DNA of 64,000 nt from Cymodocea nodosa (lineage: Eukaryota > Streptophyta > Magnoliopsida > Alismatales > Cymodoceaceae): NCBI GenBank assembly GCA_036874045.1, contig JAZBRI010000008.1:6773001-6837000 (forward strand), given 5' to 3'. Positions 3,430-43,601 of this stretch are shown here, piece by piece. The position numbers were made by a program, and so were the translations under genes. How positions within the stretch are numbered: position 1 is the stretch's first letter; each line of letters opens with the position of its first letter. The notes below the pieces were generated by a model that saw only the letters and a program-made list of their open reading frames with translations, was not told the origin of the DNA and made no database searches.

Positions 3430-3528
3430 GAAGCATACATGAGCAACGTCTTCTAACTCTTGTTCTTCTTCTGAATGTGAAAATTTTGATGATGATTCCT
3501 TAGATTCAGACTCTTCTAACGTGTCATC

Positions 3529-4710: not shown

Positions 4711-4722
4711 GCTCTAATACCA
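4711..4722 (-). other. primer binding site, initiator tRNA-Met type
   Basis: On the minus strand TGGTATTAGAGC begins two bases inside the LTR end. It differs by one base from TGGTATCAGAGC, the complement of the 3' end of plant initiator tRNA-Met used by most plant copia elements. It fixes 4725-6345 as the 5' LTR. Confidence 0.93.
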
Positions 4723-4724
4723 CT

Positions 4725-10739: not shown

Positions 10740-10746
10740 AGTTTTC

Positions 10747-10764
10747 TAGCGTCGTTGCGAGGGA
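10747..10764 (+). other. primer binding site of B, tRNA-Asp type
   Basis: TAGCGTCGTTGCGAGGGA resembles TGGCGCCGTTGCCGGGGA, the primer site of Athila/Tat-type Ty3 elements that is complementary to tRNA-Asp. It begins seven bases inside the LTR. Element A has a better-preserved copy at 54704-54721. Confidence 0.8.
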
Positions 10765-10821
10765 TTGAGAAGCTAAGCAACTATGAGTGCTGTTTTGTTT
10801 TAATATCAAAAGGAGTGTTTT

Positions 10822-12652: not shown

Positions 12653-12748
12653 ACATGTCCAATCATTATTGCTTCAGATTTAAAAGAGGATCAAATTTTT
12701 AAATTAAAAGATGTAGTAAAAGCGTATAAAGAAGCAATAGGATGGACT

Positions 12749-14298
12749 ATGGATGATATAAAAGTGTTAAGTGCAACTTTATGTTGTCACTATATATATT
12801 TAGAAGAAAATGCTAAACCTGTTAGAATTCTTGAGAGGAGATTAAATCCAAACCTTAAAGAAGTAGTCAGAAAGGAAATAGTAAAATGGTTAGATAATGA
12901 CATAATTTATCCAATTTCTGATAGCTCATGGGCTAGTCCAATCCATGTAGTCCCAAAGAAATCAGGATTAACAGTTATTAGGAATGAAAGTCAGGACTTG
13001 ATACCTACTAGAATTCAATTAGGCTAGAGAGTATGTATAGACTATAGAAAGCTAAATGGTGTTACTAGGAAAGATCATTTTCCCTTACATTTTATAGACA
13101 AAATGCTAGAGAAAATAGTAGGGCAAGAATATTTTTGTTTCCTAGATGGTTATTCAGGATATAAGCAAGTTCCTGTAGCATTAGAGGATCAAGGGAAGAC
13201 AACTTTCACATGTCCTAAGGGAACTTATGCTTTTAAGAGAATGCCATTCGGATTATGTAATGCACTAGCTACTTTTCAAAGGTGTATGCAAGGCATATTC
13301 ACTAGAATGACTGAAGACTATTTAGAAATATTTATGGATGATTTTACTGTATATGGAACTTCATATGAAGTGTGTTTAAACAATTTAAACTAAGTATTAA
13401 AATGTTGTGTGGAAAAAAATCTGGTTTTAAATTAGAAAAAATGTCATTTCATGGTTAAATAAGGAATAGTCTTGGGACATGCTGTTTCAAAGAAAGGGTT
13501 GGAAGTAGATAAAGCTAAATAGAAGTAATTTTTAATCTATCAGAACCTAAATCAGTAAAATATATTAGATCATTTTTAAGACTTGCTGGATTTTATAGAA
13601 GATTCATTAAAGATTTTAGCAAAATAGCTAGACGTTTAACTAATTTATTAAAAGATGTCTCATTCAACTTTGATAAGAATTGCAAAGAAGCATTTTTCAA
13701 GCTTAAAACTAGCTTAATTTCTACTACTATAATTCAAGCACCTGATTGGAGCCATCAATTTGAATTAATGTGCGATGCATCTGATTTTACTATAGGAGCA
13801 GTGTTGAGACAAAAGATAGAAAAATTTCCTAGAGTGATTCATTATGCAAGCAAAACTTTGAATGATGCTCAAATTAATTATACTACTACTAAAAAAGAAC
13901 TATTAGCTGTAGTGTTTGCCTTAGAAAAGTTTAGATCATATCTAATTGGAGCAAAAATGATAGTATACACGGATCATTCAGCTTTAAAACACCTAATAGC
14001 AAAGAAAGAGACTAAACCTAGATTGATTCGGTGGATATTATTATTACAAGAATTTGATCTAGAAATTAAAGATAAAAAAGGTTGTGAGAATGTAGTAGCA
14101 GACCATTTATCAAGATTACAAATAGAAAAATCAAATATTGAAATTAAGGATAATTTTCCTGATGGACAATTAATGACCATCAACACAATGCCTTGGTACG
14201 TAGACATAGTTAATTACTTAGTTATTGGTTTAACACCTAAAGATTGGAATAGACAATATAAGAAATTGTTCTTTTCAAGAGTAAAATATTACTACTAG
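12749..14298 (+). pseudogene. Ty3 reverse transcriptase and RNase H region of B (fossil)
   Basis: RT blocks seen in order: ERRLNPNLKEVVRKEIVKWL, FCFLDGYSGYKQV, PFGLCNALATFQRCM and the catalytic EIFMDDFTVYG (about 13320-13355), then the thumb and tether. RNase H follows: [16 protein letters not shown] (about 13755-13800), [17 protein letters not shown] and [10 protein letters not shown], ending with the VADHLSRL motif. FMDD rather than YVDD and RH following RT mark Ty3/Athila. Broken copy. Confidence 0.92.
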
Positions 14299-14299
14299 G

Positions 14300-15483
14300 A
14301 AGACCCATACTTTTTTAAGAAATGTCTTGATATGGTTTTAAGGAGGTGTGTCCCAAAAACTAAATATCAGAGCATATTGTCTTTCTACCATGACCAAGTA
14401 TGGGGAGGACATTTTGGTTCAAGGAAAACTACTGCCAAAATTCTGCAATGTGGATTTTTTTGGCCAACACTATTCAAAGATACTCATATATATTACTTAA
14501 GTTGTTTAAGATGTTAACAAATAGGAAGAATATCAAAGAGGAATATGATGCCTCTAAACCCTATTGTTGAGTTTGAAATCTTTGATGTGTGGGGAATAGA
14601 TTTTATGGGTCCATTTCCTATGTGTAATCAATTTAATTATATATTGTTGAGGGTGAATTATGTATCTAAATGGATAGAAGTTATTCCTACAAAAACTAAT
14701 GACAACAAAGTGGTAATACATTTTATAAGAACTAATATAATTGCTAGATTTGGAATACCTAAAACTATTATTAGTGATAGAGGAACTCATTTCTGTAATA
14801 GAAGTTTTGAAGCCTTAATGAAGAAATATGGAGTAAATCACAAAATTGCAACATCATATCATCCACAAACAAGTGGACAAGTAGAAAGTGTAAACAAATA
14901 AATTAAGTTAATCTTAGAAAAAGTAGTAAATACTACTAGAATAGATTGGGCTAATAGATTAATAGATGCACTGTGGGCTTATAGAATTGCTTATAAGACA
15001 AGCTTAGGTATGTCACCTTTTAGAATAGTATATGGAAAAAGTTGTCATTTACTAGCTGAAATTAAACATAAAGCTTATTGGGCATTAAAAACTCTGAACA
15101 CTAATTTGAATGAAGTTGCTGAAAACAGAAAAATACAATTAATTGAATTAGAAGAATTTAAGAATGAAGCTTATTAGAAAACTGTAAAAGAAAAAGAGAA
15201 AATAAAGTTTTGGCATGACAAGAAAATTATTCCAAAAACTTTTGAAATTAGACAAGAAGTATATCTTTACATGACTAGACTTCATAACTATCCAAGAAAA
15301 TTGAGATCTAGATGGGCAGGACCTTACATAATTCGAAATATCTATCCCTATGGAGCAATTGAAATTGAAAATCCTAAAAATCAGAATATATTTAAAGTAA
15401 ATGGACATAGACTTAGACCTATTCTAAAAATTCCAAAAAGTTCCTTTGGAATTATAGAAGAAGTAAAAGTAGAGGACCACTAA
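14300..15483 (+). pseudogene. Ty3 integrase region of B (fossil)
   Basis: It contains the HHCC zinc module (HDQVWGGHFGSRKT to CLRC, about 14390-14515), the catalytic core with [10 protein letters not shown] (first D), ISDRGTHF (second D) and SGQVESVNK (E), and a C-terminal GPY/F-type module ([20 protein letters not shown], about 15300-15360). It would join cDNA ends to the target. The coding region ends at 15483 and is followed by a spacer rich in GGTTTNACCGAAA words. Broken copy. Confidence 0.9.
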
Positions 15484-16198
15484 AGCTTTGCTTAAAAACA
15501 AAAAAAAAAAACTTATTTTGAAGTTAGTCACAATTCAACCGAAAGAAATTATCGGTTTTACCGAAACATATATTAAAAGAAAAATATTGTTACGATCCCA
15601 CCGAAAGAATCCATCAGTTTGACTGAAACATAAAAATATAAAAAATCTGTATATTATATTAAGTAAAATGTCGGTTTCATCGAAGTATGGTATCGATTCA
15701 ATCGATAGGCAAAAAGAAGAAGAACTAAGTATTTAATTTTGGTTCAATCGAGGAATATAATGGTTTGACCGAAATTCTAAAAGGTGGAAAAATTAAGAGT
15801 CGATCAGATTGAAAATTCTTTGGTCTAGACTAAATTAAAAATTATTATTTTAAGTACTTTTATTAGTTATAACTTTACGGGAAGTTCGTTGAGTTACGCT
15901 TAACTCAACGAACTTACTCCGTTGAGTCTAGGATAAGTTAACGAGCTTACTCCATTGAGTTGACTATAACTCAATGGAGTACTGTAGTTAAGTCCATGAA
16001 CTTAGTCCGTGCAGTTAACCGTAACTTCACGGAGAAGTGAGTGAGATAGCGAGAGTTTGTGCTGGAAAATGACTTGATTACCTGCTTAAAACTTAGGGTT
16101 TATTTATACTAAAACTTAGGGTTTGAGGGCATTATTCGCAAAATCATTTAGAACTTAGAACAATGAAGATCAGAGTGATTCCGTTCTGTTCCGTCACA
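15484..16198 (+). repeat. integrase to ORF-1 spacer of B with CG-word arrays
   Basis: 15530-15840 carries repeated CGGTTTTACCGAAAC/CGGTTTGACCGAAAC-like words and their reverse complements. 15860-16040 carries TAACTCAACGAAC, CGTTGAGTTA and related words in both orientations. A short run with the LTR-like phrase AAAACTTAGGGTTTATTT precedes ORF-1. The same two blocks in the same order occur in C (36740-37090) and inverted in A (49600-49900). No coding sequence seen. Confidence 0.75.
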
Positions 16199-18430
16199 CC
16201 ACGAGGTCAAGATGACGCTAGAGTTCTAGGAGGAAGTTAACACCACGAGATTTCTTAAAGAATTAGAAGAATGACATACAAGACAAAAGATCAGGAACAG
16301 AACTCAGGAAAAAGAACTACAAAAGGTAGAATTTGACATCTTCTACTAGAGAAAAATTTTAGTAGATTTAGATATTAAGATACCTCAGATTGTGGAAACA
16401 AGGATTAAGGTGTCAACAGAAGTTGTAGTAAATAGAGAAAGAAAAATAAGACGAAACAATGAAGTTTCCTTAGAATTGATCCGACGCAAGTCCAGATTAT
16501 GGTTCATACGACATATTGGTAGACATGCCCAGTGGGCAATCTAGGAGTAGCAGAGGAAGGCAACTGAAGAACCTGCAACTGAAGAGCCAGCTGCTGAAAG
16601 ACTTGTTATTGAGGAACAACAGGTAGGACCTTCAATTCCACCACCTAAACCACTAGAAAGGGTGGTAGTTATGGGGCCTTCTACTGAAGAAGAGTTAAAA
16701 GAATTTGAGGAACTAGTTTGAGTTGGGAAAAACTAAGGAGAATCAGAAGATTTGGTAGTAGCTAAAGCACATATGGTGTTTGATGCACTTTACAAAAGGA
16801 GGGCTACAGAAAAGTTGAAGGCCCAATACAAAGTTAAAGTCGAACAACATCAAGAAGCCACTACCATACCTACTACAAGAGAAACTGAAACTAGTCTTTC
16901 AAGACCAATAATTATAGAAAGAGTAAAATAGGAAGAGTCAGTACCTATGGCTCGAGGGCCTATAGAGCCTATTTTTGTAGATTTAATCTTAGAGGAGGAA
17001 GAGGAAGACCAAGCACAACTATTTAGAATAAGGAAAGGAAAAGAGATAGTGCCTGAAGCTCCTATAGAGAATAAACTTGAGCTTAAAATATTAGAAGGGC
17101 TTGTAGAGCCCATTTTTGTAGACCTACTATCTAAATCTTAGGAAGAGTAGAAGTAGCAGCAACAAAAGCAAAGAGAAGAAGGAAAATAGGCTGAAATTAG
17201 TCTGCAACTTATACAAATAGAAGAAACTAAAGTAAGGGCAGAAACTGATTTGCTTGCAAATCCATCCCAATCTGCCATAGAATTAGAAACAATGACAATG
17301 CAGATTGGTAGTTAGGAGGAAGAAGAAATAGAAGAAGCTGAACAAGTACATATTGAACAAAAAAGAAATGACTCAACAAATTCCATTGAAGATGGAGAAA
17401 CTCTTTAGCAATTAATTGAAAGAATTCAAGATAGAGTGGAAAGTTCTGTGGGCTCTCCACCACAGATTGAAAGAGGAGCTGAAATGCAGGAATCTCTGTA
17501 TCATCTCCAACAAATTCAAGTTCAGCAAATGGAAGAAGAAATTCAAGAACAAACCCCTCTAGAGCAACAAATGTAGATTACTGACTTGGTTGAAGCAACA
17601 GTTCTAAATGAAGTTTACTTTTAGAATCAAGAAGCTTATAATAATTATCAAGAGATAAAGGGGTATGACATTATACATAGTAGACTAGTAAACTAGGACG
17701 ATATGTAGGAAATTAAAGAATTATTTGAGTTTCAGGGTCTACTACAATTTATTTCTCAATAGAGAGGGCATGCAGTATATGAAAATTTAGTGCCCTACTT
17801 TTATGCAAACTTGAGAGAGAAAGAAGAAAGTTTAATTTCCAACATGGAGCAAGCTGATGTACAGATAACACCAGAGCTTCTCCACAATATTTTTGAATTG
17901 AAAAATGAAGGATTAGAAATCTTGGAAAACACAACTGCAATCGTGTGGATAGAACAAGAAATAAAAGACTGTTTAGCTATCAATCTTGGTGTGCCACTAT
18001 TAAATAGAACGAAGTACTTAAATGGTAAAGCACACATGTAGCTAACATTTTGATTAAAAATGTCTACTAACGACAAGGCCATGATATAGAACTTAGTCAA
18101 TTTGTCAAGTGGACTACATATGTAGTTGCGAATAGAATTCAAATTAATTGGTACAAAGTTTTTATCTCCAAACTAAGAGCAGTAAAGAAGAAATTATATT
18201 ATGGAGATTTGATTCTACTACTGATGGTGGATAGCATCAATTTCACAAAATAGACATCTAAAAGGATAAGATCAAGAACCATTTTAGTGAAAGAATACAT
18301 AAATTATGCTACTGCTGAGATTGTTGGACCTTTTGGAGGCATTACAAGGGCTATTGAGTGGATAAATCAATTAGAACAACAATTAGAAAAGCTCTAGAAG
18401 GAAGTAGATGAACTTAGGAAGAAAGATTAA
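16199..18430 (+). pseudogene. Athila ORF-1-like gene of B (putative plant transposon protein domain; fossil)
   Basis: This third gene lies between integrase and gag. The N-terminal half is charged, Q/E-rich and contains two repeats of the type EPIFVDLL/EPIFVDLI followed by acidic residues (about 16960-17010 and 17105-17150). The C-terminal half (about 17690-18430) has FEFQGLLQFIS and LVPYFYANLREKEE, the pattern of the 'putative plant transposon protein' domain of Athila ORF-1, sometimes called env-like. No transmembrane segment is evident. The role is unknown. Broken copy; cognates at 37249-39459 (C) and 49433-47227 (A). Confidence 0.75.
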
Positions 18431-18488
18431 AATGTATTGTTCATCTACTTGTATTGAAAATTTTTTATTGTACTGTAAACGATATATA

Positions 18489-20138
18489 TGTAGGATCGTA
18501 TGGCTACACAAGAGGGGGGTGAATTATGTTTTTCAACATTTTTGATTATAATTGAAACTTCAAAACTCAAAAACAAGTCGAGACACTATTTTCATAAAAT
18601 CATTTTTATTCAAGGTTTCAATTACAATATAGAATTCAATTCTCCTCAGAAATTGTAGATGCCATTATATATCAATACCATGTTTCATCTATACAATTTC
18701 ATAACTACAAACAGAGAAAATTAATTTGCAAAATTTAAAACATTTCTCCCTGTTTGAGATCTTTCTTCTTCTTCTTCTTTTTCTTCTTTAGCAATTATTC
18801 AGTGACGAATATTTTGTCTTTCTCTGCTTCATTGAATTTGCTTTCTTCTGATACTTCAAATCTTTAGTGACATAGATCTTACCTGTTTCTGCTTCACTGA
18901 ATTTTCTTCCATCTGAGAGCTTTTCCCCGAAAAGTGTTTTTGATCCCTGAAAAGATTTTTCATTTGGTGTGCAGGGATAATTGATCAACGAGAATTCTAT
19001 GCCTTTTATACTGTATTTTCATTTCATGCATATCCTTCACGTTTAATCACTACTAGTTTTCCACTTCTTCATATCTTCTCTTTTTCCTTCATCGAAATAC
19101 ACACGTTCTAACCCACGCTTACATTTTGAATTTTCTTTAATCACCAATCCTAGATCTTTGAAAAATTTCTTGCAAAATACACTTTCTCGTCCAAAATTTT
19201 TCATCAAGTGTAATAAGAAGTCGTTACTTTAATGTTAACTAAACGAGTAACATAAGTAGATATATAGCTTAACGTTTCTAACTTAATGAGTTCCTCATGC
19301 GCCAACTCACGTGATAGGTACTGTAGCTAACTCAACGAACTAAGTTTGTGGTGTTACACTAACTCAATGAACCAGCTTTGTGGTGTTACGATAACTCAAT
19401 GAACCAGCTTAACCTTTCTTTCGAAAGGTTAAATGCTAACTCACCAATAACAGTTTAAGTTTCGGATAGTTACGGTTGTAAGTCTTCGAAAAACTTTAAC
19501 TCACCGATTCAGTAATAAACAAATGTTTTTATAATAAGAATTTTACCACGTGCAAAAATAACAACTTAAGTTTATAATGCTAACCTAACGCGTTGCCTTA
19601 GTGTTCAATATAGCAACTCAACATGTTTAGTTATGTTAACTTAACGAGTTAAGCATGTGCACCTCACGTGATACAATATAACATTCGTAACTTTTAATTT
19701 CACCATGTGTACAACACTAACTTAATGTATTCCTTTCTTCTTTTACTCACTAACTTAATGAGTTCTCACGTGATCTATTTTAACCTTTAAGCCTCTAACT
19801 TAACGAGTTTTTACGTGATCTCTATACAAATAACACTCTAACTTAACGAGTTGTCTAAACGTGCACTATTCATGATATAGAAGATATAACTTTAAAACAT
19901 ATCATGCTTTTCAATAAAAACAAGCGTTAACTTAACGTTTAGTTAAATGAGAAATTAATGCAATGAAACGACTAATTATTAACTTAGTATAATTTCAGAT
20001 CTAATACAGAAAAGTATTTATATCAGTAAACTTTTTCTGTATTAATTGATGTTCTTAATTTCTTTTCACAAGCAATAGTAATTGAGTAAATATGATTACT
20101 TTCATTCACCACACATCATCAAAACAAAATACTCAACA
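18489..20138 (-). mobile_element. solo copia LTR (CP1 family) with ATATA target duplication
   Basis: It is a 1,650-base repeat, inverted, starting TGTAGGATCGTATGGC and ending ACTCAACA on the plus strand. It aligns with CP1's LTR and has no internal copia sequence. The five bases on both sides are ATATA (18484-18488 and 20139-20143), a perfect target-site duplication. This is the signature of unequal recombination between the two LTRs of a full insertion. It lies just after ORF-1 of B and is absent from A and C at that place. Confidence 0.95.
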
Positions 20139-21161
20139 ATATATATATTAATGTTTGAACATCAATTTATTTCTAAAATTATGTGATTGCAAATGAATGA
20201 TTTAATTGAGAACTATATTGAATATTATGTAATTGTTTAAAGATGTGCAAGACTGTTTAAAAGTTTACAATTTTATGAAGGACATGATTAAATGCACGAT
20301 AATTGGTTAATGCTTGAGTATATCTATATGTTGAAAAGTAAAATGTAACTTCTGCATAACAGAAAATAAACTGTAAGTTAAATATGCATATAATGTTCCG
20401 ATCTAAATGAGTTTAAATTAAAACACTGCATTACTGACATATATTTAACTTTATTTAAGTTGACAAGATGTAGGAGAAGAAAAAAATATAAAAGTTAATA
20501 CAAAGAGTAAGTTTTAGAAATTTGCTAAGTGTTAACTCAATGAAGTAAGTCTATTGAGTTAACCTTAACTCCACGAGGTCAGTAATAAATAGAAGGTCAC
20601 TTCATTGAGTTATCTGTAACTCAACGAGGTTAGTCCGTCGAGTTAGTAAATAGGCAACGAAGCTAGTCCGTTGAGTTAGTTGTAACTCAACGAGATTAGT
20701 TCGTTGAGTTAGAACAATAACCGAAGCTAGTCCGTTGAGTTAACTGTAACTCAACGAGGTTAGTTCGTGGATTAAGTTGAATGATTATTCTTTTAGCCAC
20801 GAACGAACTTCTTCCGTTTAGTGGTTGCGAAAATTTGGAATTAAAAGTGGAACACGTATCCATAAAAATAGGAACCATATTGCACGTTACAAGACACGTT
20901 CTTGCAATGAGATCCATTGACCTTATAGACGTGCATTATAAATATAGAACAAAATGTTATTTATGAGTTTCCAGCACTTGAGGAAAGAAAAGAAAATTCA
21001 TTAGGGAACTGGAAGGAGAAGCAGTTGATTCAACTTCATTTGTCAACAACTACTTATTGAAAACAAAGCATCAGTCTAGTATGTAATTAATTTTCTACTA
21101 TTTTACTTTATGTTAAGAGTTTATGAGCACATGGATTCATTTTCCTAGCACTAAATGATTA
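20139..21161 (+). other. ORF-1 to gag spacer of B
   Basis: 20520-20765 is a dense cluster of TAACTCAACG/CGTTGAGTTA words, including a perfect 10-base-stem hairpin at 20733-20756. An inverted repeat of TTCGTGG...CCACGAA-like arms follows (from 20765), then the promoter elements listed separately. After the TATA box comes a leader and a GTATGT splice-donor-like site near 21080. Short open frames here have no recognisable domain. The spacer is conserved in A and C. Confidence 0.65.
20887..20944 (+). promoter_or_regulatory. candidate internal promoter of B: palindrome plus TATA box
   Basis: An inverted repeat (TTACAAGA, CACGT, TCTTGCAA; one arm mismatch) at 20887-20907 is followed, with its end exactly 30 bases upstream, by TATAAATA at 20937-20944. 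A and C hold the same pair with perfect arms and the same 30-base spacing. CACGT is the core bound by plant bZIP/bHLH factors. It would start a transcript covering gag and F-box. Inference from conservation; no expression data. Confidence 0.6.
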
Positions 21162-22740
21162 TGTTGAGTATTTTGTTTTGATGATGTGTGCTGAATGAAA
21201 AATAATCATATTTGCTCAATTACTATTGCTTGTGAAAGGAAATTAAGTACATCAATTAATACAGAAAAAACTTACTAATATAAATACTTGTCTGTATTGG
21301 ATTTGAAATTATACTAAGTTAATAACTAGTCATTTCGTTGCATTAATTTCTCATTTAACCAAACGTTAAGTTAACGTGTATTTTTATTGAAAAGCATGAT
21401 ATGTTTTAAAGTTATATTTTCTGTACACGAACAATGCACGTTTAGACAACTTGTTAAATTAGAGTTTTGTTCATATAGAGATCACGTGAGAACTCGTTAA
21501 GTTAGAGGCTTAAAGGTTAAAATAGGTCACGTGAAAACTCGTTAAGTTAGTGAGTAAAAGAAGAGACGAACTCGTTAAGTTAGTGTTGTATACGTGGTGA
21601 AATTATAAGTTACAAATGTTATATTATATCACGTGAAATGCACATGTTTAACTCATTAAGTTAATATGACTAAACACGTTGAGTTGCTATATTGAACACT
21701 AAGGCAACACGTTAGGTTAGCGTTATAAACTTAAGTTATTATTTTTGCACGTGATAAAATTCTTATTATAAAAACATTTGTTTATTACTTGTTCGTTGAG
21801 TTAGCGTAACACAATGGAGATGGTTCGTTGAGTTATTGTAACACAACGGAGATAGTTCATTGAGTTAGCGTAACACCATAGAGATAGTTCGTTGAATTAG
21901 CTATAGTACTTGTCACGTGAGTTGGCACATGAGAAACTCATTAAGTTAGAAACGTTAAGTTATATATATATACTTGTGTTACTCGTTTAGTTAACATTAA
22001 AGTAACAACTTCTTATTATACTTGATGAAAAATTTTGGAAGAGAAATTTTATTTTGCAAGAAATTTTTAAAAGATCCATGATTGATAATTAAAGAAAATT
22101 CGAAATGTAAACGTGGGTCAGAATGTGTGTATTTCGATGAAGGAAAAAGAAAAGACGTGAAGAAATGGAAGACTGATAGTGATTAAACATGGAGGATATG
22201 CATGAAATGAAGATATTATATAAAAGGCATAGAATTCTTGTTGATCAGTTATCCCTGCACACCAAAAGAAAAATCTTTTTAGGGATCAAAAACACCTCTT
22301 TGGGGAAAAGCTCTCAGGTGGAAGAAAATTCAGTGAAGCAGAAAAGTTCAGATTTACATCATTGAAGATTTAAAGTATTAGAATAAAGCAAATTCAGTGA
22401 AGTAGAGAAAGACAAAATATTCGTCACTAAAGAATTACTGAAGAAGAAAGAGAAGAAGAAGAAGAAAGATTTCAAATAGGGAGAAATGTTTTAAATTCCG
22501 CAAATTAGTTTTCTCTGTTTATAGTTATGAAATTGTATAGATGAAACATGGTATTGATATATAATTGCATTTACAATTTTTGAGGAGAATTGAATTGTAT
22601 ATTGTAATTGAAACCTTGAATAAAAATGATTTTATGAAAATAGTGTCTCGATTTGTTTTTGAGTTTTAAAGTTTCAATTATATTTGAAAATATTGAAAAA
22701 CACAATTTACCCCCCTCTTGTGTAGTCATACGATCCTACA
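21162..22740 (+). mobile_element. solo copia LTR (CP1 family) with GATTA target duplication
   Basis: It starts TGTTGAGTATTTTGTTTTGA and ends CGATCCTACA (1,579 bases), in the opposite orientation to the neighbouring solo LTR. GATTA flanks it on both sides (21157-21161 and 22741-22745). The interrupted Ty3 sequence is intact at the matching site in C (57627, AATGATTAATAAGAAC). It sits in the leader between the internal promoter and gag of B. Confidence 0.96.
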
Positions 22741-22862
22741 GATTAGTAAGAATACCTACATAGGATTATTCAACATAGAAGTATACTAAAATATTTTCTG
22801 AATTGGACTTTAACAAAATCCTTAGGGGTGTAGCTTACATTTCTTTAAAGGAGAATGAAGAT

Positions 22863-24053
22863 ATGGCTGCTCTAGTAGAAAAACCATTAGGGGAAATTTT
22901 GTATCCTAAATTAGTTGATGAACCTTCATGTATTTGATTGCCAAACTTTAAGGGAGATAGGTTTGAATTGAAATCTAATTATATTAGTCAATTGCCACAC
23001 TTTCATGGATTAGAAAGAGAAGATGTGTATTATTTCCTTAGAGAATTTAATGAAGTTTATCAAATGTTGAAAATGCCGAACATGAGTATTGATGCTATTG
23101 AACTTAGATATATTCCTTTTGCTTTAAAAGACATAGTTAGGAGATGGTTATATACTTTGTCGCCTGATTCAATTTCTGCATGGACTGAATTTTGCTCTAT
23201 TTTTCTGAAAAAATATTATCCAACACATTAAACGATTAAAAAGAAAAAGGAAATATTAATGTGTACCCAAAAACTAGGAAAATAATTCTGAAAATATTTT
23301 GAAAGATTTAAAGATTTACTGACTCAATGTCCACATCATGCAATGAGTAAAGCACAATTAATATGTATAATTTATGAGGGCATAGATGTTTCAACTAAAT
23401 CTTTATTAGAATCTACATGCTAGAATGGATTTTTAAAACTGTATAGTGAAGAAGCATGGGTATACTTAGAAAACTTTGCAAAAAGAACTGTACAGTGGGA
23501 AAACTTGGTTGAAGCTATTACAGATAAAAGAATATTGCCAAGGGGAATGCATGAAATAGATTCAAGCACTATGCTTGAAGTTAAATTAACTGAGTTAACG
23601 AAGAAAATCAAAGAGTTATCATTAAATCAAAAACTAGCAAAAAAAAGTGCAAATATTAATGACTTAGATATTATTTATGTTAGAAACCAGAAAGATAACT
23701 TTGGAAATTCTTATAACCCTAATTGGAGAAATCACCCGAACCTATCTTAGAGAAATAACAATTTCCAAGGAGGAGAAAATATAAATGACAAAAATGTAAG
23801 TTATGAAGTATTAATTGAACAAGGATCTAGAATAGAGAAGTTAGAAAAGATAATTCAACAATTAAATAATCGTCTAGATCTTGTATTTGGAAATGCTACC
23901 ATTCACAATCATAATATGAATAGAATATACCCCCTAGAGAGAAGGAATCAATAGAAGTTAGACCTACTAGAGGATTGCTAATGCAAGCAGTGTCTAACCC
24001 TATCAATAGAACTATTAATGAAATTGATACCTCCTTTCGGAGGGAAACTAAAT
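22863..24053 (+). pseudogene. Ty3 gag capsid-type domain of B, located downstream of pol (fossil)
   Basis: The domain has the Athila/Tat gag pattern: LPNFKGDRFELKSNYISQLP, EREDVYYFLREFNEVYQMLK, RWLYTLSPDSISAWTEFCSI (about 22940-23230), a CPHH block, and the tail GNSYNPNWRNHPNL (about 23700-23745) that in Athila gag usually precedes the zinc knuckle. Here no knuckle follows; it sits 12 kb upstream at 10890. Gag would assemble the particle. A (46119-44932) and C (57742-58929) hold it at the same place. Broken copy. Confidence 0.87.
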
Positions 24054-24268
24054 GAAATAGTATAACTTCAACAATTATGTATAATATAGTAAATAGAAAA
24101 ATATAAAAAGAAAAATATGTAAGTTTAATTATAGTTAGTAATATCGTAGAGTTATCACTTAACTTAACAAACTTAGACCGTTGAGTTATGACCTAACTCC
24201 ACGAGAGTAAGTAAGTAGCTAGGTTAATTTTATCTCTACTAAATTTTATTTTTACAGAATTACAACAG

Positions 24269-25409
24269 ATGGAGTTGATGAAATTACCACTAGATGCATT
24301 AAGGGAAGTACTGAGTAACCTGTCAGCTAAAGATCTGTGCAGATTGTGTTGTGTATCAAAGGAAATTAAAGAATGTGTTAGAGGAAAATATTTTCATGAA
24401 CTACAAGTTGCAAAAATGACTAATATTAGAGATGGGTTTTTATGGAAGTCATTTAATCGTAGTTCAATCAGCTATGAATATCTAAATATGGAAGAAACTA
24501 TTGGAATTCCACCTAATACATTAGAAGGAATAGATCATATTATGGGGATAAATGAAGGATTAATTATTTATAGAACCAAATCTAGGTATGCAATTCTGTT
24601 ACTCGATATTTTGATTAGAAATCCTATCACTAGAGAAGAATGGAATCTAGGAAGGCCTAATAGATTTGAAGTACCAATTGAAAATTGTGGGTCGGCATTA
24701 CTCTTTTCTAACAAAAATTCAACCATTCCTAGAAAAATTGTATTACTGGAGACCAACTGAAAATTGGGATGAAGATTTATGTTTAAGTGTGTATAATTTT
24801 CTAAATAGATCTTGGACTGAAAATACTAGAATATATCTAGGATAGAAAACATTAATTAACAACATACATGTCATACTTGATGGATATATATATCTAGTCA
24901 CAGATATATCAGTTGCATTTAGATCTAATTTATACATAGTGAGTATAGATAGTTATGATGATGACTTTATAGAAATATTGCCTATACCTAGTGGTATAGT
25001 TGAACCATCATCTACGGAACATGATGAAATTTAATTAGGAATGTGGTACAATGAATATGATGATCCTACTTTATGTTTAATAAGATGGCGGGATGAATTG
25101 ATGAAATTTCAAATATGGATTATGAAATATCTAAATGAATGGAAGTGGGAAGAGGAATATATTGAAATATATGTAGAAATAGAAACAACTACATTATCTT
25201 GGAACAGAAAAGGATCCCTTTCTACATTTTAAATTATTAATGGTAATACACTTATATTTAGTATTGATAACATACTACAAGTTTACAAGTTAAAAAAGAG
25301 AGAATATTGCATTAAAACAGAATTAATAGCAAGGAGAATTATGCCTAAAAAGTTTGCTTGGACTAGCATGTTTATTTCATTTGTCATAACTTTTCAATCA
25401 TGTTCTTAA
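24269..25409 (+). pseudogene. F-box/F-box-associated protein gene carried by element B (fossil)
   Basis: The N-terminus has an F-box, LPLDALREVLSNLSAKDLCR followed by LCCVSKEIK (about 24280-24370), matching the plant consensus LPxxLxxEILxRLPxKxLxRxxCVSKxW. An F-box-associated-like domain follows: RNPITREEWNLGRPN, YWRPTENWDED, VILDGYIYLVTDISV and FQIWIMKYLNEWKWEE. In host proteins the F-box binds SKP1 in SCF ubiquitin ligases and the rest chooses the target. The start is the ATG after a TTTTTACAG acceptor-like site. The gene is retained in A, C and D at the same position, so it belongs to the element. Broken copy. Confidence 0.85.
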
Positions 25410-25509
25410 ACTGTGATTTTGTACTTTTAATGTTGTGTGAATCCTGCATTTATGTTTAAAAAATATATATATATATATCAATCCAGTTTATTGGTATTTA
25501 TTTTGGGAA

Positions 25510-25570
25510 ACCAATTGCCTTGCTTGTGAGCCACCAAAGGCATAAGAGTCTGGGTTCCACACAAGACACT
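25510..25570 (+). repeat. tRNA/SINE-like block after the F-box gene (B)
   Basis: The block contains TTGCCTTGCTTGTGAGCCACC and GGGTTCCACACAAGAC. The best-kept copies (C 61930-61992, D 31012-31075 inverted) have TNGCTTGCTTG, close to the pol III A box TRGYNNANNNG, and GGTTCCACAC, close to the B box GWTCRANNC, each off by about one base and about 40 bases apart. It may be a remnant of a tRNA-derived SINE. There is no foldable tRNA that I can support. Confidence 0.35.
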
Positions 25571-27152
25571 AATTTAACAATTTATGTTTTATTATTTTGT
25601 TATATATTCTACTTTTATTTGTGAATTAAAAGTTTTTTAGAATCAAAAGTTGGAAGATATCAAAAGAGATACAAAAGAACAAGGTATGTAATTAATTATT
25701 TAGCTTGAATTTACATTTAAACTCAGTTCATGGAGTTATTCATTAACTCAACAAATTAAGTTCGTTGAGTTAGGTGCTAAATCAACGAAACAATATTCAT
25801 GCTTGCTAACATTTATTGTATTTACTGTAGGTATGGGGGGGGAGGTAATTAGATTAAAGCCAAGTCATTTTGTTAATTAGAGGAACTAAGATGGTGCTAC
25901 AAAATTCAGTGGAAATTGAAATTTTTTTTTATGAATTTGTTATAACTAACTACAATTTCCTATAATTATCCGATAATTGAAACTGTAAAAAAACAACACT
26001 GTAACTGTTTGAATGTATATTTAGAATTTTATAGAAGATGCTACAAATTTTACTATTATACAAATTTGGATATAGTATCTTATGTTTTTGCTAAATTTTA
26101 TGAGTTTAACAGTTTCACAATTTTAAAAGAAATCAGAGTACTTAATTGAAACTGAATAAATGATTTGAAATCCTGAAAGATCTAAAATGTTGATTTTTGG
26201 ATTAAATGAGATGCATATGATCAAGGATACATTCAATTTGATTGATTAAACTTGTAGAATGATTTATGTGTAAATCTTATTAAATTACAGAAAAAGTGTG
26301 AGCTTGTTGATATAGATTCATGTTTTTAGTAAATTATAGAAGTAGGATTATATGAGATTTGTGTTTTATAGCATCTGTATTAATGAAATACGAATATATA
26401 TTGTGTTGAAAAGAAAAAGAAAAAAAAGAGAAAAACTTTGAGAGTTTATTGACTTGTTTGATCACGAGCCTTTTGTACTTGAGCAGATAAGTATGTAAGG
26501 ATTATTCACCTAAAAAAGGACTCTTTAAATCTAGCAACCTATGATCCTAATCAGATCTGAGATTGTTGATTGAAAGCTCGATACATGGGTACACTAGAAA
26601 GCTCTTGTATGATTCAAGCTTTTCAAATTAACTTTTAAAGTACAAATATGCATATACTGTTTTGAAAAGATAAAAATGTTTTGTGAAATACAGATATCTT
26701 TTGAATCAAGAATATTTTCTATTATCTAAGATTATTGAAATATGAATCTAGATTAGACTTTTAAAGTTGTTTATTTGAGATACAATTTATTATTCTTCTT
26801 GTTTTAATCATATTGAGTTGGATTGTGTTTTGATTCGTATGTAGTTGAAATTTATTTTGGAAATCATATTGGAAAATTCAGGATAACAGATGTTGAGAAA
26901 AAAATGATAATATAATTACCACCTATGTGAAGCTAATATATTTTGTATGTAATTTACATATGTTTTAAATATATTTGCAGGTTGAAGAGGAGAAAACAAT
27001 GTCAAATTAGATTACTAAATTAATACAGAATATCTTTACATTAATCTAATTTATGTATTTTGAAGAAAAAATGAATGAAGAATTAGTTCTAGCACTTTAG
27101 AATGTCCAACTAGTTAGATCTTAGTAGTTTGCTAAGGGACTAGCAAAATTTA

Positions 27153-27165
27153 AGTATGGGGGAAG
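27153..27165 (+). other. polypurine tract of B
   Basis: GTATGGGGGAAG ends exactly at the first base of the 3' LTR (TGTTTAGAATG at 27166). It is the plus-strand primer site expected next to a 3' LTR, and matches the tracts of A and C. Confidence 0.88.
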
Positions 27166-27226
27166 TGTTTAGAATGAAAAAGTGCATAATACTAATGCTT
27201 AAATGATGGTTAATTGCATAATATTT
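27166..27226 (+). repeat. start of B's 3' LTR
   Basis: 61 bases identical or nearly identical to 8906-8966 of the 5' LTR, then copia element E begins. The remaining LTR is not found to the right of E. Confidence 0.9.
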
Positions 27227-29449: not shown

Positions 29450-32290
29450 ACTTGCTAGTCCCTTAGCAAACTAAGATCTAATTAATTGGTATTTCTAAAA
29501 GTGCTAGAATTAATTCTTCCTTTTTTGTTCTATTCAGCATAAGAACTTGTATTATTATATAGATATTCTTGTATGTTTTAGTAATCTGTTTTAACATTGT
29601 TTTCTCCTCTTCAACCAGCAAATATACTTAGAATATATGCAAATTACATACAAAGTATATCATCATCACATAGGTGTTAATTATATTATCGTTTATTCTT
29701 CTTTTCATCATTTATCATCCTAAATTTTCCAATAAGATTTCTAGAAGAAATTTCAATAACATACGAATCAAAGTACAATCCAATTCAATATGATTAAAAC
29801 AAGTAGAATAAAGAATTGTATCTCCATAAAACAACTTCAAAAGTCAATTCTAGATTCATATTTTAGCAATTCTAGATAACAGAAAATATACTTGATTCAT
29901 AAGATATCTGTATTTCACAAAACACTTGTATCTTTTCAAAATAGTATATGTATTTTTGTACTTTAAAAGTTAATTTGACAAGCTTGAATCATACAAAAGC
30001 TTTCTAATGTACCCATGTAATGAGCTTTTAGTCAACAATCCCAGATCTGATCAGGATCTTAGGTTGCCAGATTTCAAGAGTCCTTTTTCAAGTCAACAAT
30101 CCTTACATATCCATCTGCTCAAGTACAAAAGGCTCGTGATCAAACAAGTCAATAAACTCTCAAATTTTATTTTATTTTTCAAAACAAAAAACATTAATCA
30201 CATACTGTATATGTACGTATTTCATTAATATAGATGTAATAAATCACCAATCTCATATAGTCTTACTTCTATCATTTACTGAAAATATGAATCCATAACA
30301 ATAAGCTCATACTTTTTCTGTAGTTTAATAAGATCTACACATAAATCATTCTACAAGTTTAATCAGTCAAATTAAATGTATCTTTAATCATATGTGTTTT
30401 ATTTAATCTAGAATTCACATCTCAGCTCTTTCAGGACTTCAGATAATTTACTGATTTTTCATTAAATACTCTGATTTCATTTTAAAATCGTGAAACTGTT
30501 AAACTCATGAAATTCAGAAAAAACATAAGATACTATATCTAGATTTGCATAAATAGTAAATTCTATAGTATCTTATATAGTCTTCTAAATATAACATTCA
30601 AGCAGTTACAGTTTATAAAAATTTTACAGTCTCAATTATCGGATAGTTACAACAAGTTCATAAAAAAAAATTTTCAATTTCCACAAAACTTTGCAGTACC
30701 ATTCTAATTCCTTTAATTAACAAACTTACATGGCTGTTACTTTAATTACCTCCCCCCATACCTACATTTTGCATTGTCCTCAATGTAAAAGATTTGACAA
30801 TAAATACGATGAATACAGTTTTGTTGGTTTAACACCTAACTCAACGAATGAGTTTAAATCTAAATTCAAGATAAGTAATCAGTTACATACCTTGTTTCGT
30901 TTGTAACTCCTTTTGTATATTCCAATTTTTGATTATGAAAAACTTTTTATTCACAGATAAAAGCAAAATATATAACAAAATAATAGTTAATAAATATTTA
31001 TAAATCATTGTCTTGTGTGGAACCTAGGCTCCTACGCCTTTGGTGGCTCACAAGCAAGCCAGTTGGTTTCCCAACATAGATACCAACAAACTGGATTAAT
31101 ATATATTTTTTATTTTATAAAATAAACTAAAACTAAAATTTTTCTAAAGTAAATGCAGACAACACACAACATTATAAGCACAAAATCACAGCTTAAGAAC
31201 ATGATTGAAAAGTAGAAACAAATGGAATAAACGTGTTAGTCCAAGCAAACTTTTTAGGCATAATTCTTCTTACTATTAATTCTATTTTAATGTAGTTCGT
31301 GTTCCTTCTTAATTTGTAAACTTGCAATATATTATTAATGCTAAATACAAGTGTATTACCATTAATGAAATGAAATGCAGAAAGGGATCCTTTTCAGTTC
31401 CAGGATAATGTAGTAGTTTCTATTTCTACATCTATTTCAATATATTCCTCTTCCCACTTCCATTCATTTATGTCTTTCATGATCCATATTTGAAATTTCA
31501 TCAACTCATCCCACCATCTTATCAGATATAAAGTAGGATCATCATATTCATTATACCACATCCCTATTTGAATTTTATTAAATTCTGCAAATGGTGGTTT
31601 AGCTATTTCTCTCGGTATAGGCAAAATTTCTATATATTCATCATAACTATCTATGCTTACTATGTATAAATTAGATCTAAATGCAACTGATATATCTGTG
31701 ACTAGATATATATATCCATCAAGTATGACATGCATGTTGATAATTAATGATTTCTGTCCTAGATATATCATAGTGTTTTCAGTCCAAGATCTATTTAGAA
31801 AATTATACACACTCAAGCATAAATCTTCATCCCAATTTCCTATAGGTCTCCAATAATATAATTTTTTAGGAATGGTCAAATTTTTATCAGAAAATATTAA
31901 AGCCGACCCAAAATTTTCAGTTGGTACTTTATATCTATTAGGTCTTCCTATATTCCATTCTTCTCTTGTGATAGGATTTCTGATCAAAATATCAAGTAAT
32001 AGAATTGCATACCTTGGTTTGGTCCTGTATATAATTAATCCTTCATCCATCCCCATAATATGATGTATTCCTTCTAATGTATTGGGTGAAATTCTAGTAG
32101 TTTTTTCCATATTCAGGTATTCATGGCTAATTGAACTACAATTAAATGACTTCCATATGAATCCATCTCTAATCTTAGTCATTTTTGCAGCTTGTAGTCC
32201 CTGAAAATATTTTTCTCTGACATAGTCTTTAATTTCCTTTGATGCACAACACAACCTGCATAGATCTTTAGTTGACAAGTTACTAAGTAC
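29450..32290 (-). mobile_element. Ty3 fragment D: F-box gene and 3' noncoding block (A/B/C family)
   Basis: The inverted sequence corresponds to F-box plus 3' noncoding block of A (41901-44720) over its whole length. It includes CTAGTCCCTTAGCAAAC at 29455, the purine tract CCTCCCCCCATACC (inverted) near 30750 and the tRNA-like block at 31012-31075. It abuts copia E on the left and element C (opposite strand) on the right, so both edges are rearrangement points rather than element ends. No LTR remains. Confidence 0.88.
31193..32290 (-). pseudogene. F-box-associated protein gene carried by Ty3 fragment D (fossil)
   Basis: This is the best-preserved copy of the element-borne F-box gene, with a 294-residue continuous frame (32278-31394). 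It has the second half of the F-box (KDLCRLCCASKEIK), then RNPITREEWNIGRPN, YWRPIGNWDEDLCLSVYNFL, VILDGYIYLVTDISVAF and FQIWIMKDINEWKWEEEYIE. The last block resembles the kelch-like end of plant F-box-associated domains. The first residues of the F-box fall beyond the edge with element C. Homologous sequence continues to 31193. Fossil copy. Confidence 0.85.
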
Positions 32291-32299
32291 TCAGATCTT

Positions 32300-33620
32300 T
32301 TGTTGACTGGAGTGTAGTATAGAGCAAAACCTGGACAAACTAGAATACTTTATGTGTCAGCAACAAGAAGTCAACAAATTAAACTATAAGGAAGCATATT
32401 CAGAACCTAAAATGGATATAATTTACGAAACTGAAAAAAACATAATGAAAATTGATCAAAAATTGAACGCAATGAGATTAGATGATCTAGAAAGAAAACT
32501 AAAAGCATTGGACGAATATACAATGAAAATACAAGTTATGCAACATGGCAATGAAAATTATAATGTTATAGATCTGCATAATTTGCAAAATATACAGCCA
32601 AAAAAAAAAACTAATGCATGAGAATTTAAAGAATGCACTTTAAAACTAAAAACAATTGAAGATCTTAATCACAAAAATGATATACAAAAACATCATGAGA
32701 GTAACGAAAATCTAGAAGATGTATGTGTAATATTAAGATCTGGAACAGATATACCACCAAGAACTCAAAATGAAAATAATATGAAGGTGGATAAGAGTAA
32801 AAATCAAAATGATAATGAAAATGTAATAGCTGAAAATCTAGAAATCACTGAAGAACAATCTGAATCAACTAATGAGGCTAAAAATGATCAAAGAAATCAA
32901 TCGAGAGAAAAAGAATATTTTAAATCACAATCTTTAGTACCCTATCCTAAAAGATTACAACAAACAATACCTGAAAAACAAGAAAAAATTAGAGAAATTT
33001 TTGAAAAAGTGCAAGTTAACATTCCTTTGTTAGATCTATTGTAGAAAATGCCACCTTGTGCTAAATTTTTGAAGGATTCGTGTACTAAGAAAAGAGAGCA
33101 AAAAGTTCTTAGAAAGGTCTTTTTAAGTAAGCAAAGTAGTTCCCTATTCCTGCCACAAATTCCTAAAAAGTTATCTGATCCTGGAATCCCTGTTATATCA
33201 TGCACCATAGGAAATACCATTCTAGAAACAATCTTAATAGACTTAGGTGCAGGTATAAATGTTATGTCAAGTGATATATTTGCATCCTTAGGATTAGAAG
33301 TCTTAACTCCTACTAGTACGGTTATTCAATTAGTTGATAGAAGTATAAGATAGCCTAGAGGAAAAATAGAGGATGTCTTAATTAAAATCAAAAACTTTAT
33401 ATATCCTATTGATATTGTAATTTTGGATTCCCAACAAATTAAGCATAAAAATAGTGATACATCTTTAATTTTGGGAATGCCATTTTTAGCAACATCAAGG
33501 GCTGTTATAAATTGTAAAACTGGAGTAATGAAGTTAGCATATGGTAATGAGGATACTCAATTAAATATTTTCAAACCAGAAAGGTTTTAGGAGTTAGAAA
33601 TGTCCTTACATACCATAGAC
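32300..33620 (+). pseudogene. Ty3 linker and protease region of C (fossil)
   Basis: A charged linker with heptad-like KIDQKLNAMRLDDLERKLKA (about 32450-32510) is followed by the VNIPLLDLL block (about 33015) and the retropepsin segment DLGAGINVMSSDIFASLGLE (about 33240-33300). It is co-linear with 11100-12400 of B. The zinc knuckle part is not present in C as seen here. Confidence 0.85.
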
Positions 33621-35412
33621 TTTTTAGAGGATGAAGGAGATATGTTAGATGATGTGATTCAAGAAGAATTAAATAGGCAAATCAATTCTGAAACTTTAGA
33701 GAAAAGTGAAAGCATAAATATAGAAGGAGATCTGGAAGAAATTAATTTAGAAAATGATGATGTTCAATTAGGAGCTCTAACTTCTGATGGGCAATATTTA
33801 GAATTAAAACCTTTACCTCTTGAATTAACATATATATTTCTGGAAGAGAAACGAACATGTCCAATCATTATTGCTTCAGATTTAAAAGAGGATCAAATAG
33901 CTAAATTAAAAGATGTAGTGAAAAGTTATAAAGAAGCAATAGGATGGACTATGACTGATATAAAAGGGTTAAGTTCAACTTTATGCTGTCACCACATATA
34001 TTTAGAAGAGAATGCTAAACCTGTTAGAATTCCTGAGAGGAGATTAAATCCAAACCTTAAAGAAGTAGTCAGGAAAGAAATAGTGAAATGGTTAGATAAT
34101 GACATAATTTATCCGATTTCTAATAGCTCGTGGGTTAGCCTAATCCATGTAGTTCCCGAGAAATCAGGATTAACAGTTATTAGGAACGAAAGTCAAGACT
34201 TGATACCTACTAAAATTCAATCAGGCTAGAGAGTATGTATAGACTATAGAAAGCTGAATGCTGTGACTAGGAAAGATCATTTTCCTTTACCTCTTATAAA
34301 TCAAATGTTGGAAAGATTAGTAGGGTAAGAATATTTTTGTTTCCTAAACGAGTATTCAGGTTATAATCAAATTCCAGTAGCACTAGAGGATCAAAAGAAA
34401 ATAACTTTCACCTGCCTTAATGGAACTTACGCTTTTAAGAGAATGCCATTCAGATTATGCAATGCACCAGCCACCTTTCAAAGGTGTATGTAGGGCATAT
34501 TTACTAGAATGACTGAAGATTTCTTAGAAATATTTATGGATGATTTTACTATTTATGGCAACTCATATGAAGTTTGTTTAAAAAATTTAGACCAAATATT
34601 AAAATGCTGTGTGGAAAAAAAATTTGGTTCTAAATTGGGAAAAATGTCACTTCATGGTTAAATAAGGAATAGTCTTAGGGCATGTTTCTAAGAAAGGGTT
34701 GGAAGTAGGTAAAGCTAAAATAGAAGTAATTTCTAATCTATCAGAACCTAAATCAGTAAAAGATATTAGATCATTTCTAGGACATGCTAGTTTTTATAGA
34801 AGATTTATTAAAGACTTTAGCAAAATAGCTAGACCTTTAACTAATCTATTAAAAGATGTCCCATTTAACTTTGATAAAAATTGCAAGGAAGCATATTTTA
34901 GACTTAAAACTAGCTTAATTTCAACTCCTATAATTCAAGCACCTGATTGGAGCCATCCATTTGAATTAATGTGTGATGCATCTAATTTTGTTGTAGGAGT
35001 AGTGTTGGGATAGAAGATAGAAAAATCTCCTAGAGTGATTCATTATGCAAGCAAAACCTTAAATGATGCTCAAGTTAATTACACAACTACTGAAAAAGAA
35101 CTATTAGTCGTTGTGTTTGCTTTGGAAAAGTTTAGATCATATTTGATTGGAGCTAAAGTAATAGTATACACGGATCATGTAGCTTTAAAACACCTAATAG
35201 CAAAAAATGAAACTAAGCCTAGATTGATCCGTTGGATATTATTATTACAAGAATTTGATCTAGAAATTAAAGATAAAAAAGGTTGTGAGAATGTAGTAGC
35301 AGATCATTTATCAATATTACAAATAGAAAAATCAAATATTGAAATTAAGGATAATTTTCCTGTTGAACAATTAATGACCATCAACACAATACCTTGGTAT
35401 TCAAACAGTTAA
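33621..35412 (+). pseudogene. Ty3 reverse transcriptase and RNase H region of C (fossil)
   Basis: An acidic linker (33600-33850) leads into RT with [36 protein letters not shown]-type and EIFMDDF blocks (catalytic site about 34528-34545), then the [20 protein letters not shown] tether. RNase H follows with [30 protein letters not shown] and [10 protein letters not shown] (34960-35200). The domain order is that of Ty3/Athila. Broken copy. Confidence 0.9.
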
Positions 35413-35464
35413 TTACTTAGTTACTGGTTTAACACCTAAGGATTGGAATAGACAGGATAAGAAA

Positions 35465-36694
35465 TTGTTTTTCTCAAGAGTAAAATATTACTATTGGGAA
35501 GACCCATACTTATTTAAGAAATGTCCTGATCTGGTTTTAAAGAGGTGTGTTCCAGAAACTAAATATCAGAGCATATTGTCTTTCTGTCATGACCAAGCTT
35601 GTGGAGGGCATTTTGGCTCAGGGAAAACTACTACAAAAATTCTGCAATGTGGGTTTTATTGGCCAACACTATTCAAAGATGCTCATAAATATTGCTTAAG
35701 TTGTTTAAGATGTCAACAAATAGGAAGAATATCAAAGAGGAATATGATGCCTCTTAATCCTATTGTTGAGGTTGAAATCTTTGATGTGTGGGGAATAGAT
35801 TTTATAGGTCCATTTCCTATGTCTAATCAATTTAATTACATATTGTTGGGGCTGGATTATGTATCTAAATGGATAGAAGTTATTCCTACAAAAACTAATG
35901 ACAACAAAGTGGTAATACAATTTATAAGAACCAATATATTTGCTAGATTTGGAATACCTAAAGCTATTATTAGTGATAGAGGAACTCATTTCTATAATAG
36001 AAGTTTTGAAGCTTTAATGAAGAAATATGGAGTAAACCACAGAATTGCAATATCATATCATCCGCAAACAAGTGGACAAGTAGAAAGTGCTAACAAACAA
36101 ATTAAGTTAATCTTAGAAAAAGTAGTAAATCCTACTAGATCAGATTGGGCTAATAGATTGATAGATGCACTTTGGGCTTATAGAACTGCTTATAAGACAA
36201 GCTTAGGTATGTTACCTTTTAGACTAGTATATGGAAAAAGTTGTCATTTACCAATTGAAATAGAACATAAAGCTTATTGGGCATTAAAAACTTTGAACAC
36301 TAATTTAAATCAAGCTGTTGAAAATAGGAAAAGGCAATTAATTGAATTAGTAGAATTTAGAAATGAAGCTTATTTGAAGACTATAAGTGAAAAAGAGAAA
36401 ATGAAATTGTGGCATGATAGGAAAATTATTCCAAAAAGCTTTGAAATAGGACAAGAAGTATATCTTTACATGGCTAGACTCCATAACCATCCAAGAAAAT
36501 TAAGATCTAGATGGGCAAGACCTTACATAGTTCGAAATATTTATCCCTATGGAGCTATTTAGATTGAAAATCCTAAAAATTAGAATATCTTTAAAGTAAA
36601 TGGACAAAGGCTTAGACCTATTTTGAAAATACCAAAAAGCTCCTTTGGAATTATAGAAGAAGTAAGAGTAGAGGACTACTCGAGCTTTACTTAG
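35465..36694 (+). pseudogene. Ty3 integrase region of C (fossil)
   Basis: The longest integrase frame in the window (365 residues, 35465-36562). It shows the HHCC module ([14 protein letters not shown] to CLSCLRC), [18 protein letters not shown] and [11 protein letters not shown] for the D, D, E core, and a GPY/F-type end ([20 protein letters not shown]). Homologous sequence continues to 36694. Part of a broken element. Confidence 0.92.
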
Positions 36695-37248
36695 TAAGAA
36701 ATTAGTTTTTATTTTATTTTCATTTTGATAAAAAAAATTATAAAATATAAAATATAAAAATTGTTGCGGTTCAACTGACTAGATCCATCGGTATGATTGA
36801 AACATAAAAAAAATTTATATTAATTTTTAGGAAAAAAAATTCGGTCTGACCGAAACATATTATCGGTTAAACCGGTAAAAACCGAAAGAAAAAAAAAACT
36901 TTTATCTCAAGTATTTTATTATTATATCTGTCTATACGGGAAGTCTGTTGAGTTACACTTAACTCAACGAACTTACTCCGTTGAGTCTTGAGTTAGTCAA
37001 TGAGCTTATGCCGTTGTGTTAACTGGAACTCGACGGAGTACTATAGTTAAGTCCACGGACTTAGTCTGTGGAGTTATCCATGATTCCACGGATGAGAGAG
37101 CGAGAGTTGGTTCAGGAAATGACCTGATTACCTGCCTAAACTTAGGGTTTATTTTAAAACCTAGGGTTTTGGGGGCATTATCCGATAGATCAGTTAGAAC
37201 TTAGAATAGAAAGATTAGAGTGATTCTGTGCCGTTGTGTAATTCCACG
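36695..37248 (+). repeat. integrase to ORF-1 spacer of C with CG-word arrays
   Basis: 36740-36890 has CGGTTTAACC/ACCGAAAC-like words; 36930-37090 has CGTTGAGTTA, TAACTCAACG and CCACGGAC words in both orientations. It is co-linear with B (15484-16198) and A (49434-49950, inverted). Confidence 0.72.
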
Positions 37249-39459: not shown

Positions 39460-39712
39460 TTGTATAGTTCGTCTACTTGTACTTGTATATATTTGTATGA
39501 AAAATATCTGATTTGATTGTACTGTAATTTATTCATATGAATGAATATATGTTTTTGAGATATATTTTTCATGCGTGTTTAGAATGATGAAATAGATGAA
39601 CTATATTGAATGCTATATAATTTGTGAAACATTATGCATGAATGTTTAAAAAGATTTAGAGTTGTTGAATGATAGGATTAAATAATAGATGCTTGAAAAT
39701 ACCTACATGTTG
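39460..39712 (+). other. start of ORF-1 to gag spacer of C
   Basis: 253 AT-rich bases after ORF-1, ending at the insertion point of A. The same sequence appears after ORF-1 in B on the far side of its solo LTR (20144 onward). No gene seen. Confidence 0.6.
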
Positions 39713-41890: not shown

Positions 41891-41905
41891 CTTCCCCCAT
41901 ACCTA
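41891..41905 (-). other. polypurine tract of element A
   Basis: In element orientation GGTATGGGGGAAG directly precedes the 3' LTR. It is equivalent to 27153-27165 in B and 63592-63604 in C. Confidence 0.88.
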
Positions 41906-43600: not shown

Positions 43601-43601
43601 C

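Follow-up and report, generated by a model that had tools for sequence, protein, structure and literature searches.

Background

Host domains acquired by plant retrotransposons are described as rare. One case comes from orchids, where Ty3/Gypsy elements of Phalaenopsis carry an open reading frame (ORF) for an AlkB N6-methyladenosine (m6A) demethylase, with a proposed bearing on host surveillance (sections of PMC9289625). In Retand, extra antisense ORFs with a TRP28 domain lie between pol and the 3' long terminal repeat (LTR) (PMC11963269). Here we analyze 64,000 nucleotides of the Cymodocea nodosa genome (assembly GCA_036874045.1, contig JAZBRI010000008.1, positions 6,773,001 to 6,837,000 of the forward strand; hereafter “the window”), in which an ORF of about 380 codons, headed by an F-box, occupies the same internal position in four copies (A, B, D and E) of a Ty3-type element family. 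We read this ORF as a resident accessory gene of an Athila-related Ty3 lineage with the order LTR, primer binding site (PBS), pol, env-like ORF, gag, F-box, polypurine tract (PPT), LTR, and give this reading a probability of roughly 0.6; that the F-box ORF is a real resident gene, we consider very likely.

Plant retrotransposons have kept few accessory genes, and what most of these do is unknown. Outside the retrotransposons, polerovirus P0 is an F-box protein of an RNA virus, and its target is AGO1. The opposite case, F-box genes that acquired a transposase domain, is the subject of PMC12062965. For Arabidopsis Athila, excerpts of PMC2410132 describe gag-only and gag-plus-env non-autonomous forms as well as recombinant lineages, and use of a tRNA-Asp primer is noted for Diaspora and the Calypso group in a passage of PMC1142308. 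Among the matches listed from open-license PMC papers (titles and abstract starts), we found no description of an LTR element with an F-box gene, and none of a gag lying after pol and an env-like ORF. The word “F-box” is absent from the main text of a 121-genome screen (PMC9289625), 9 of whose 15 domains are named in its section 12, and a word search of PMC6317226 gave no match for F-box, extra ORFs or rearranged order.

Results

An F-box ORF shared by four element copies

In copy B, the ORF (24269-25409, plus strand) runs from an ATG to a TAA and matches the F-box profile PF00646 at 42.1 bits (E = 6.5e-11) in a Pfam profile search, the curated cut-off being 20.5 bits. The ORF of copy A (43602-44741, minus strand; 379 codons) matches the same profile at 37.2 bits on its N-terminal piece (E = 2.2e-09) and at 35.7 bits on the whole protein, so that A and B both belong to the F-box proteins by the domain cut-off. 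Fragment D (ORF at 31193-32290, minus strand; 298 codons open) is missing the start of the domain and scores 18.4 bits, just below the cut-off. The ORF of copy E, which the original prediction called C, spans 59126-61866 on the plus strand (59126-59532 and 61381-61866); its piece at 61289-61837, the part of this ORF that was scanned, matched no Pfam family. A four-copy alignment gives a start common to A, B and E and a stop common to A, B and D. Among these copies, whose divergence reaches 16%, there are two 3-nucleotide indels, and B and E each carry one indel that breaks the frame. The claim that an F-box ORF recurs at the same place in four copies is borne out by these results.

As had also been proposed, the copies are fossils, since every F-box ORF is broken: A by two in-frame stops, B by a frameshift in mid-ORF and further stops, D by about 13 missing first codons and one internal stop, and E by a split and the loss of its 3' end. 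The insertion that splits E (59533-61375) has TG...CA ends, GTACC flanks and an internal repeat of about 200 bp. A second half resembling the F-box-associated domain, by contrast with the F-box itself, was not confirmed. FBA_1 reached 13.4 bits on A's C-terminal piece against a cut-off of 21.1, and a search with the complete A protein did not return it at E<=10, so that by this domain the protein does not count among the FBA-type F-box proteins. Of the profile check suggested at the outset, then, the F-box part succeeded in A and B and fell just short in D, and the FBA part failed.

Transposition of the F-box ORF with its element

We parsed the window into nested elements by self-comparison. 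Copy A (39713-56865, minus strand), a complete element of Ty3 type, lies within copy E and has paired LTRs that start with TG and end with CA (5' LTR 54729-56865, 2137 bp; 3' LTR 39713-41890, 2178 bp, both on the minus strand). The two LTRs are 5.3% diverged over 2127 aligned bases (93.0% identity counting gaps). The PPT GGTATGGGGGAAG stands just before the 3' LTR, and the PBS TGGTGTCGTTGCCGGGGA (54704-54721, minus strand), seven bases inside the 5' LTR end, is tRNA-Asp-like. The element is flanked by TGTTG (39708-39712) and TGCTA (56866-56870), a target duplication identical at 3 of 5 positions; at the homologous site of A, which is uninterrupted, the sequence is TGTTG, consistent with a 5-bp duplication that later changed at two positions in one copy. 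These are the features of an LTR retrotransposon.

The two parts of copy E, both on the plus strand, continue each other across this insertion. The left part (32305-39712), whose 5' end is missing, carries pol and the env-like ORF and matches A positions 2518-9876; the right part (56866-64000), with gag (57658-58926), the F-box, 3' noncoding sequence and a 3' LTR from 63605, matches A from 9877 onward, starting at 56871, so that E is colinear with A on both sides. Because A lies complete within E, the F-box ORF transposed with its element. This upholds the claim that it is a resident gene of the family, and contradicts local segmental duplication, which had been named as a possible refutation.

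For each of five segments (pol, post-pol/env-like, gag, F-box and 3' noncoding), copies A and E are closer to each other than A and B are, and the F-box therefore shares the history of the other genes. The A-E divergence is uneven, at 16.6% in the post-pol/env-like segment (A 47230-49900 versus E 36760-39453) and 6.2% in pol, and may reflect recombination among copies. In the F-box, B-E (11.4%) is about as close as A-E (10.7%), unlike in pol, where B-E stands at 10.0% versus the 6.2% of A-E; this hints at mosaicism.

Selection on the F-box ORF and other genes

The NG86 ratios of nonsynonymous to synonymous change (dN/dS) between A and B are 0.29 for the F-box, 0.28 for gag, 0.25 for protease and reverse transcriptase (PR-RT), 0.27 for RNase H and integrase (RH-INT) and 0.19 for the env-like ORF. 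Controls gave 0.39-0.97 for noncoding stretches and 0.24-1.71 for shifted gene frames, including 0.31 for the +1 frame of the F-box, and in view of these ranges the simple ratio was rejected as sole evidence. We ran neutral simulations instead, applying the noncoding substitution matrices of A-B, A-E and A-D (the last from the first noncoding stretch only), scaled to gene divergence, in 500 runs each.

For A-B, the F-box dN/dS of 0.29 compares with a simulated neutral value of 0.91 (0.62-1.36), and none of the 500 runs was as low; the same holds for amino-acid divergence (0/500) and for new stops, of which there are 2 versus 11.5 simulated (0/500). The A-E comparison gave a dN/dS of 0.38 (0/500) and an amino-acid divergence reached in 23/500 runs, and A-D gave 0.40 (1/500), with 22/500 for amino-acid divergence and 1/500 for stops. 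Differences between A and B at codon positions 1, 2 and 3 number 67, 31 and 75. Together with the values for the other genes, this suggests that purifying selection acted on the F-box during the lineage's active period, just as it did on gag, pol and the env-like ORF; the dN/dS comparison between copies proposed in the original prediction thus came out in its favor.

gag downstream of pol

The genes of copy A form a series on the minus strand: pol (49960-54529), with a TLRSG motif, protease, reverse transcriptase (RT), RNase H and integrase, then the env-like ORF (47230-48252), then gag (44935-46203), and the F-box last. The integrase and RNase H profile matches for pol were taken from the homologous E and B pieces. 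The env-like ORF matches Transposase_32 (PF20167) weakly (28.3 bits, below the cut-off of 45), and from its position we take it to be the env-like ORF of Athila; this match and the tRNA-Asp-like PBS would fit the Athila lineage. The first and second pieces of A's gag match Retrotrans_gag (PF03732) at 26.5 and 21.7 bits (cut-off 24.1), and gag contains the motif YNPNWRNHPNLSW. It follows pol and the env-like ORF in B (22779-24043) and E as well, rather than standing in the canonical gag-pol-env order of the Athila lineage.

At E<=1e-4, A's gag pieces have no match in the window beyond the gag of A, B and E. Only about 175 bases separate the PBS of A from the ORF before PR, the leader of B being similarly short, and a profile search found no capsid match in A's 187-codon ORF before PR or in the TLRSG stretch. 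The best full-length RT relatives are 52% identical (P0005-P0007), and the named RT relatives are plants. Six of the 120 listed relatives of the RT piece, a set of partial proteins with candidates up to 875 amino acids, match A's gag pieces. In four of these (P0006, P0050, P0093 and P0095), the gag tail lies upstream of T(L/T)RSG, PR and RT, so in this family it is gag that has moved downstream or been joined on there. LTR elements are not usually ordered in this way, and one may ask how enough Gag was produced. Neither D's ORF nor the Transposase_32 piece had a match in PHROGs, and a scan of IMG/VR gave 82 pattern matches, 0 of them confirmed.

Copy B (8906-27226, plus strand) has a 5' LTR from 8906, a PBS-like sequence and the start of a 3' LTR (27166-27226). 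Its pol (10918-15494) and env-like ORF (17397-18427) precede gag and the F-box, and it is interrupted by two LTR-like insertions, at 18489-20138 (flanks ATATA) and 21162-22740 (flanks GATTA). This 1.6-kb LTR-like sequence occurs a third time at 4725-6346. Fragment D (29452-32291, minus strand) consists of the F-box and 3' noncoding part, and meets E head to head at 32291-32305 with 13 bases between them. A separate retroelement at 1328-2269 (minus strand), with Pol_BBD, gag_pre-integrs and integrase domains, is presumably of Copia type.

Expression signals and palindromic repeats

In A and B, the ATG of the F-box ORF is closely preceded by the candidate 3' splice sites TTATACAG and TTTTTACAG. 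A donor-like GTATGTAATTAAT, followed by an AG, precedes gag in A (46150-46330, minus strand), B (21020-22800, plus strand) and E (57540-57680, plus strand), and this conservation would suit a gag intron. For the two distal genes, gag and F-box, the translated messages were probably spliced RNAs or subgenomic RNAs of some other kind.

Palindromic units TTGAGTTA n3-5 TAACTCAA recur with a period of 33-34 bp. The window holds 53 overlapping units, versus an expectation of 1.6 (maximum 5) from 30 first-order Markov sequences. They occur in A at 46630-46787, 49620-49705 and 44827-44868; in B at 15889-15974, 20533-20754, 24147-24201 and 25731-25785 and in its two LTR-like insertions; in E at 36948-36967, 57073-57230 and 58997-59038; and in LTRs. 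By coordinates, none of those in A, B and E lies in an ORF; they sit in LTRs and at gene junctions.

Discussion

By its domain, the F-box protein is probably an SCF adaptor that serves as substrate receptor, its F-box end binding SKP1 and its C-terminal half receiving the substrate. The element would in this way have used the host's SCF ubiquitin ligase to clear away a protein standing in the way of its replication. By analogy with polerovirus P0, the first candidates for that target would be host silencing factors; an anti-silencing role is a guess, and a doubtful one. Taken as a whole, the fuller scenario of a once autonomous lineage with permuted order, spliced gag and F-box RNAs, shuffling junctions marked by palindromes and an F-box counter-defense against silencing seems unlikely. 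If the reading is true, a selected F-box gene lets elements turn the host's protein-destruction machinery to their own use, and the conflict between host and transposon becomes testable at a named protein interface.

Several observations weigh against a resident gene with this function. A protein search with D's ORF (E<=0.001, 392 candidates scored) found no relative, nor did one with the A protein at E<=10 among 1751 scored candidates sharing 5-residue words, which leaves the originally predicted host-type origin without backing; as the RT search does find plant proteins in the same collection, the gap for the F-box comes either from a search of limited sensitivity or from genuine divergence. 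Sequence searches of the PDB, with B and with an A+D+B profile, gave no match, the AlphaFold model of the F-box protein was unusable (mean predicted local distance difference test score, pLDDT, 35.6), and the Pfam search found no substrate domain at cut-off in A's protein. With no relatives in the protein and structure collections, SKP1 binding is predicted from the F-box profile alone. As for selection, the A-B +1 frame has an NG86 value (0.31) as low as the in-frame 0.29, and the two signals are separated only by the calibrated simulation, the stop counts and the low change at position 2. The F-box stop deficit is modest in A-E (24/500), the N-terminal half by itself gives a weak signal (28/500 simulations at or below the observed value in A-E, 19/500 in A-D), and D-E has an NG86 dN/dS of 0.80 (0.43-1.83), a comparison made without simulation. 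Stops in A-E number 8 versus 6.0 simulated in gag (419/500) and 5 versus 5.2 in PR-RT, and therefore much of the decay followed insertion. Copy E has lost the AG of its F-box acceptor candidate and, its 5' end being missing, could have had an upstream gag. All compared copies come from one window.

That last circumstance, together with the head-to-head position of D and E, would suit a cluster of host F-box genes, or a segmental duplication, around which retroelements had inserted. We regard this as exceedingly improbable: A's F-box lies between A's own LTRs, A lies inside E with the halves of E colinear with it on both sides, and A's LTR divergence of 5.3% is below that of A-E in each of the five segments. 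A passenger gene, transduced once as a host transcript and copied along without function, is very improbable too, given the purifying selection in A-B, A-E and A-D, the A-B deficit of stops, and the retention of the F-box by all of A, B and E.

The nature of the element and the protein's role invite other accounts of a resident F-box gene. Its product might act on the element's own proteins, in Gag or env-like turnover, or on the cell cycle by promoting S phase, and not on host silencing; the F-box carries the same selection signal as gag, which it adjoins in A, B and E, and viral F-box proteins serving other purposes exist, so we hold this to be possible, if on balance unlikely. The permuted order could instead mark a defective composite of a pol/env-like element and a gag/F-box element that relied on ordinary gag-pol elements to be mobilized in trans; here the non-autonomous and recombinant Athila forms of Arabidopsis offer a parallel (excerpts of PMC2410132) and the palindromic repeats at gene junctions possible switch points. 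Purifying signals in pol, the env-like ORF, gag and the F-box alike speak against such a composite, within the limit that three copies cannot separate selection from before a fusion, and we rate it as rather improbable. We retain the reading of the F-box as a resident accessory gene of an Athila-related lineage.

Set beside known systems, this gene resembles polerovirus P0 in being an F-box protein carried by an element; P0 differs in coming from an RNA virus and having a known target in AGO1. Like the AlkB elements of Phalaenopsis, members of this family are large plant Ty3 elements that have acquired a regulatory domain, but here the domain is an F-box rather than an RNA demethylase, and theirs is known from in vitro activity, ours from sequence alone. 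As in Retand, the extra gene lies between pol and the 3' LTR, whereas the ORFs of Retand are antisense and have a TRP28 domain. With Athila and Calypso, the family has in common a tRNA-Asp-like PBS, long LTRs, the series TLRSG-PR-RT-RH-INT, an ORF after pol in the env-like place and a gag tail motif resembling that of relatives; unlike them, it places gag after the env-like ORF and, behind gag, an F-box ORF.
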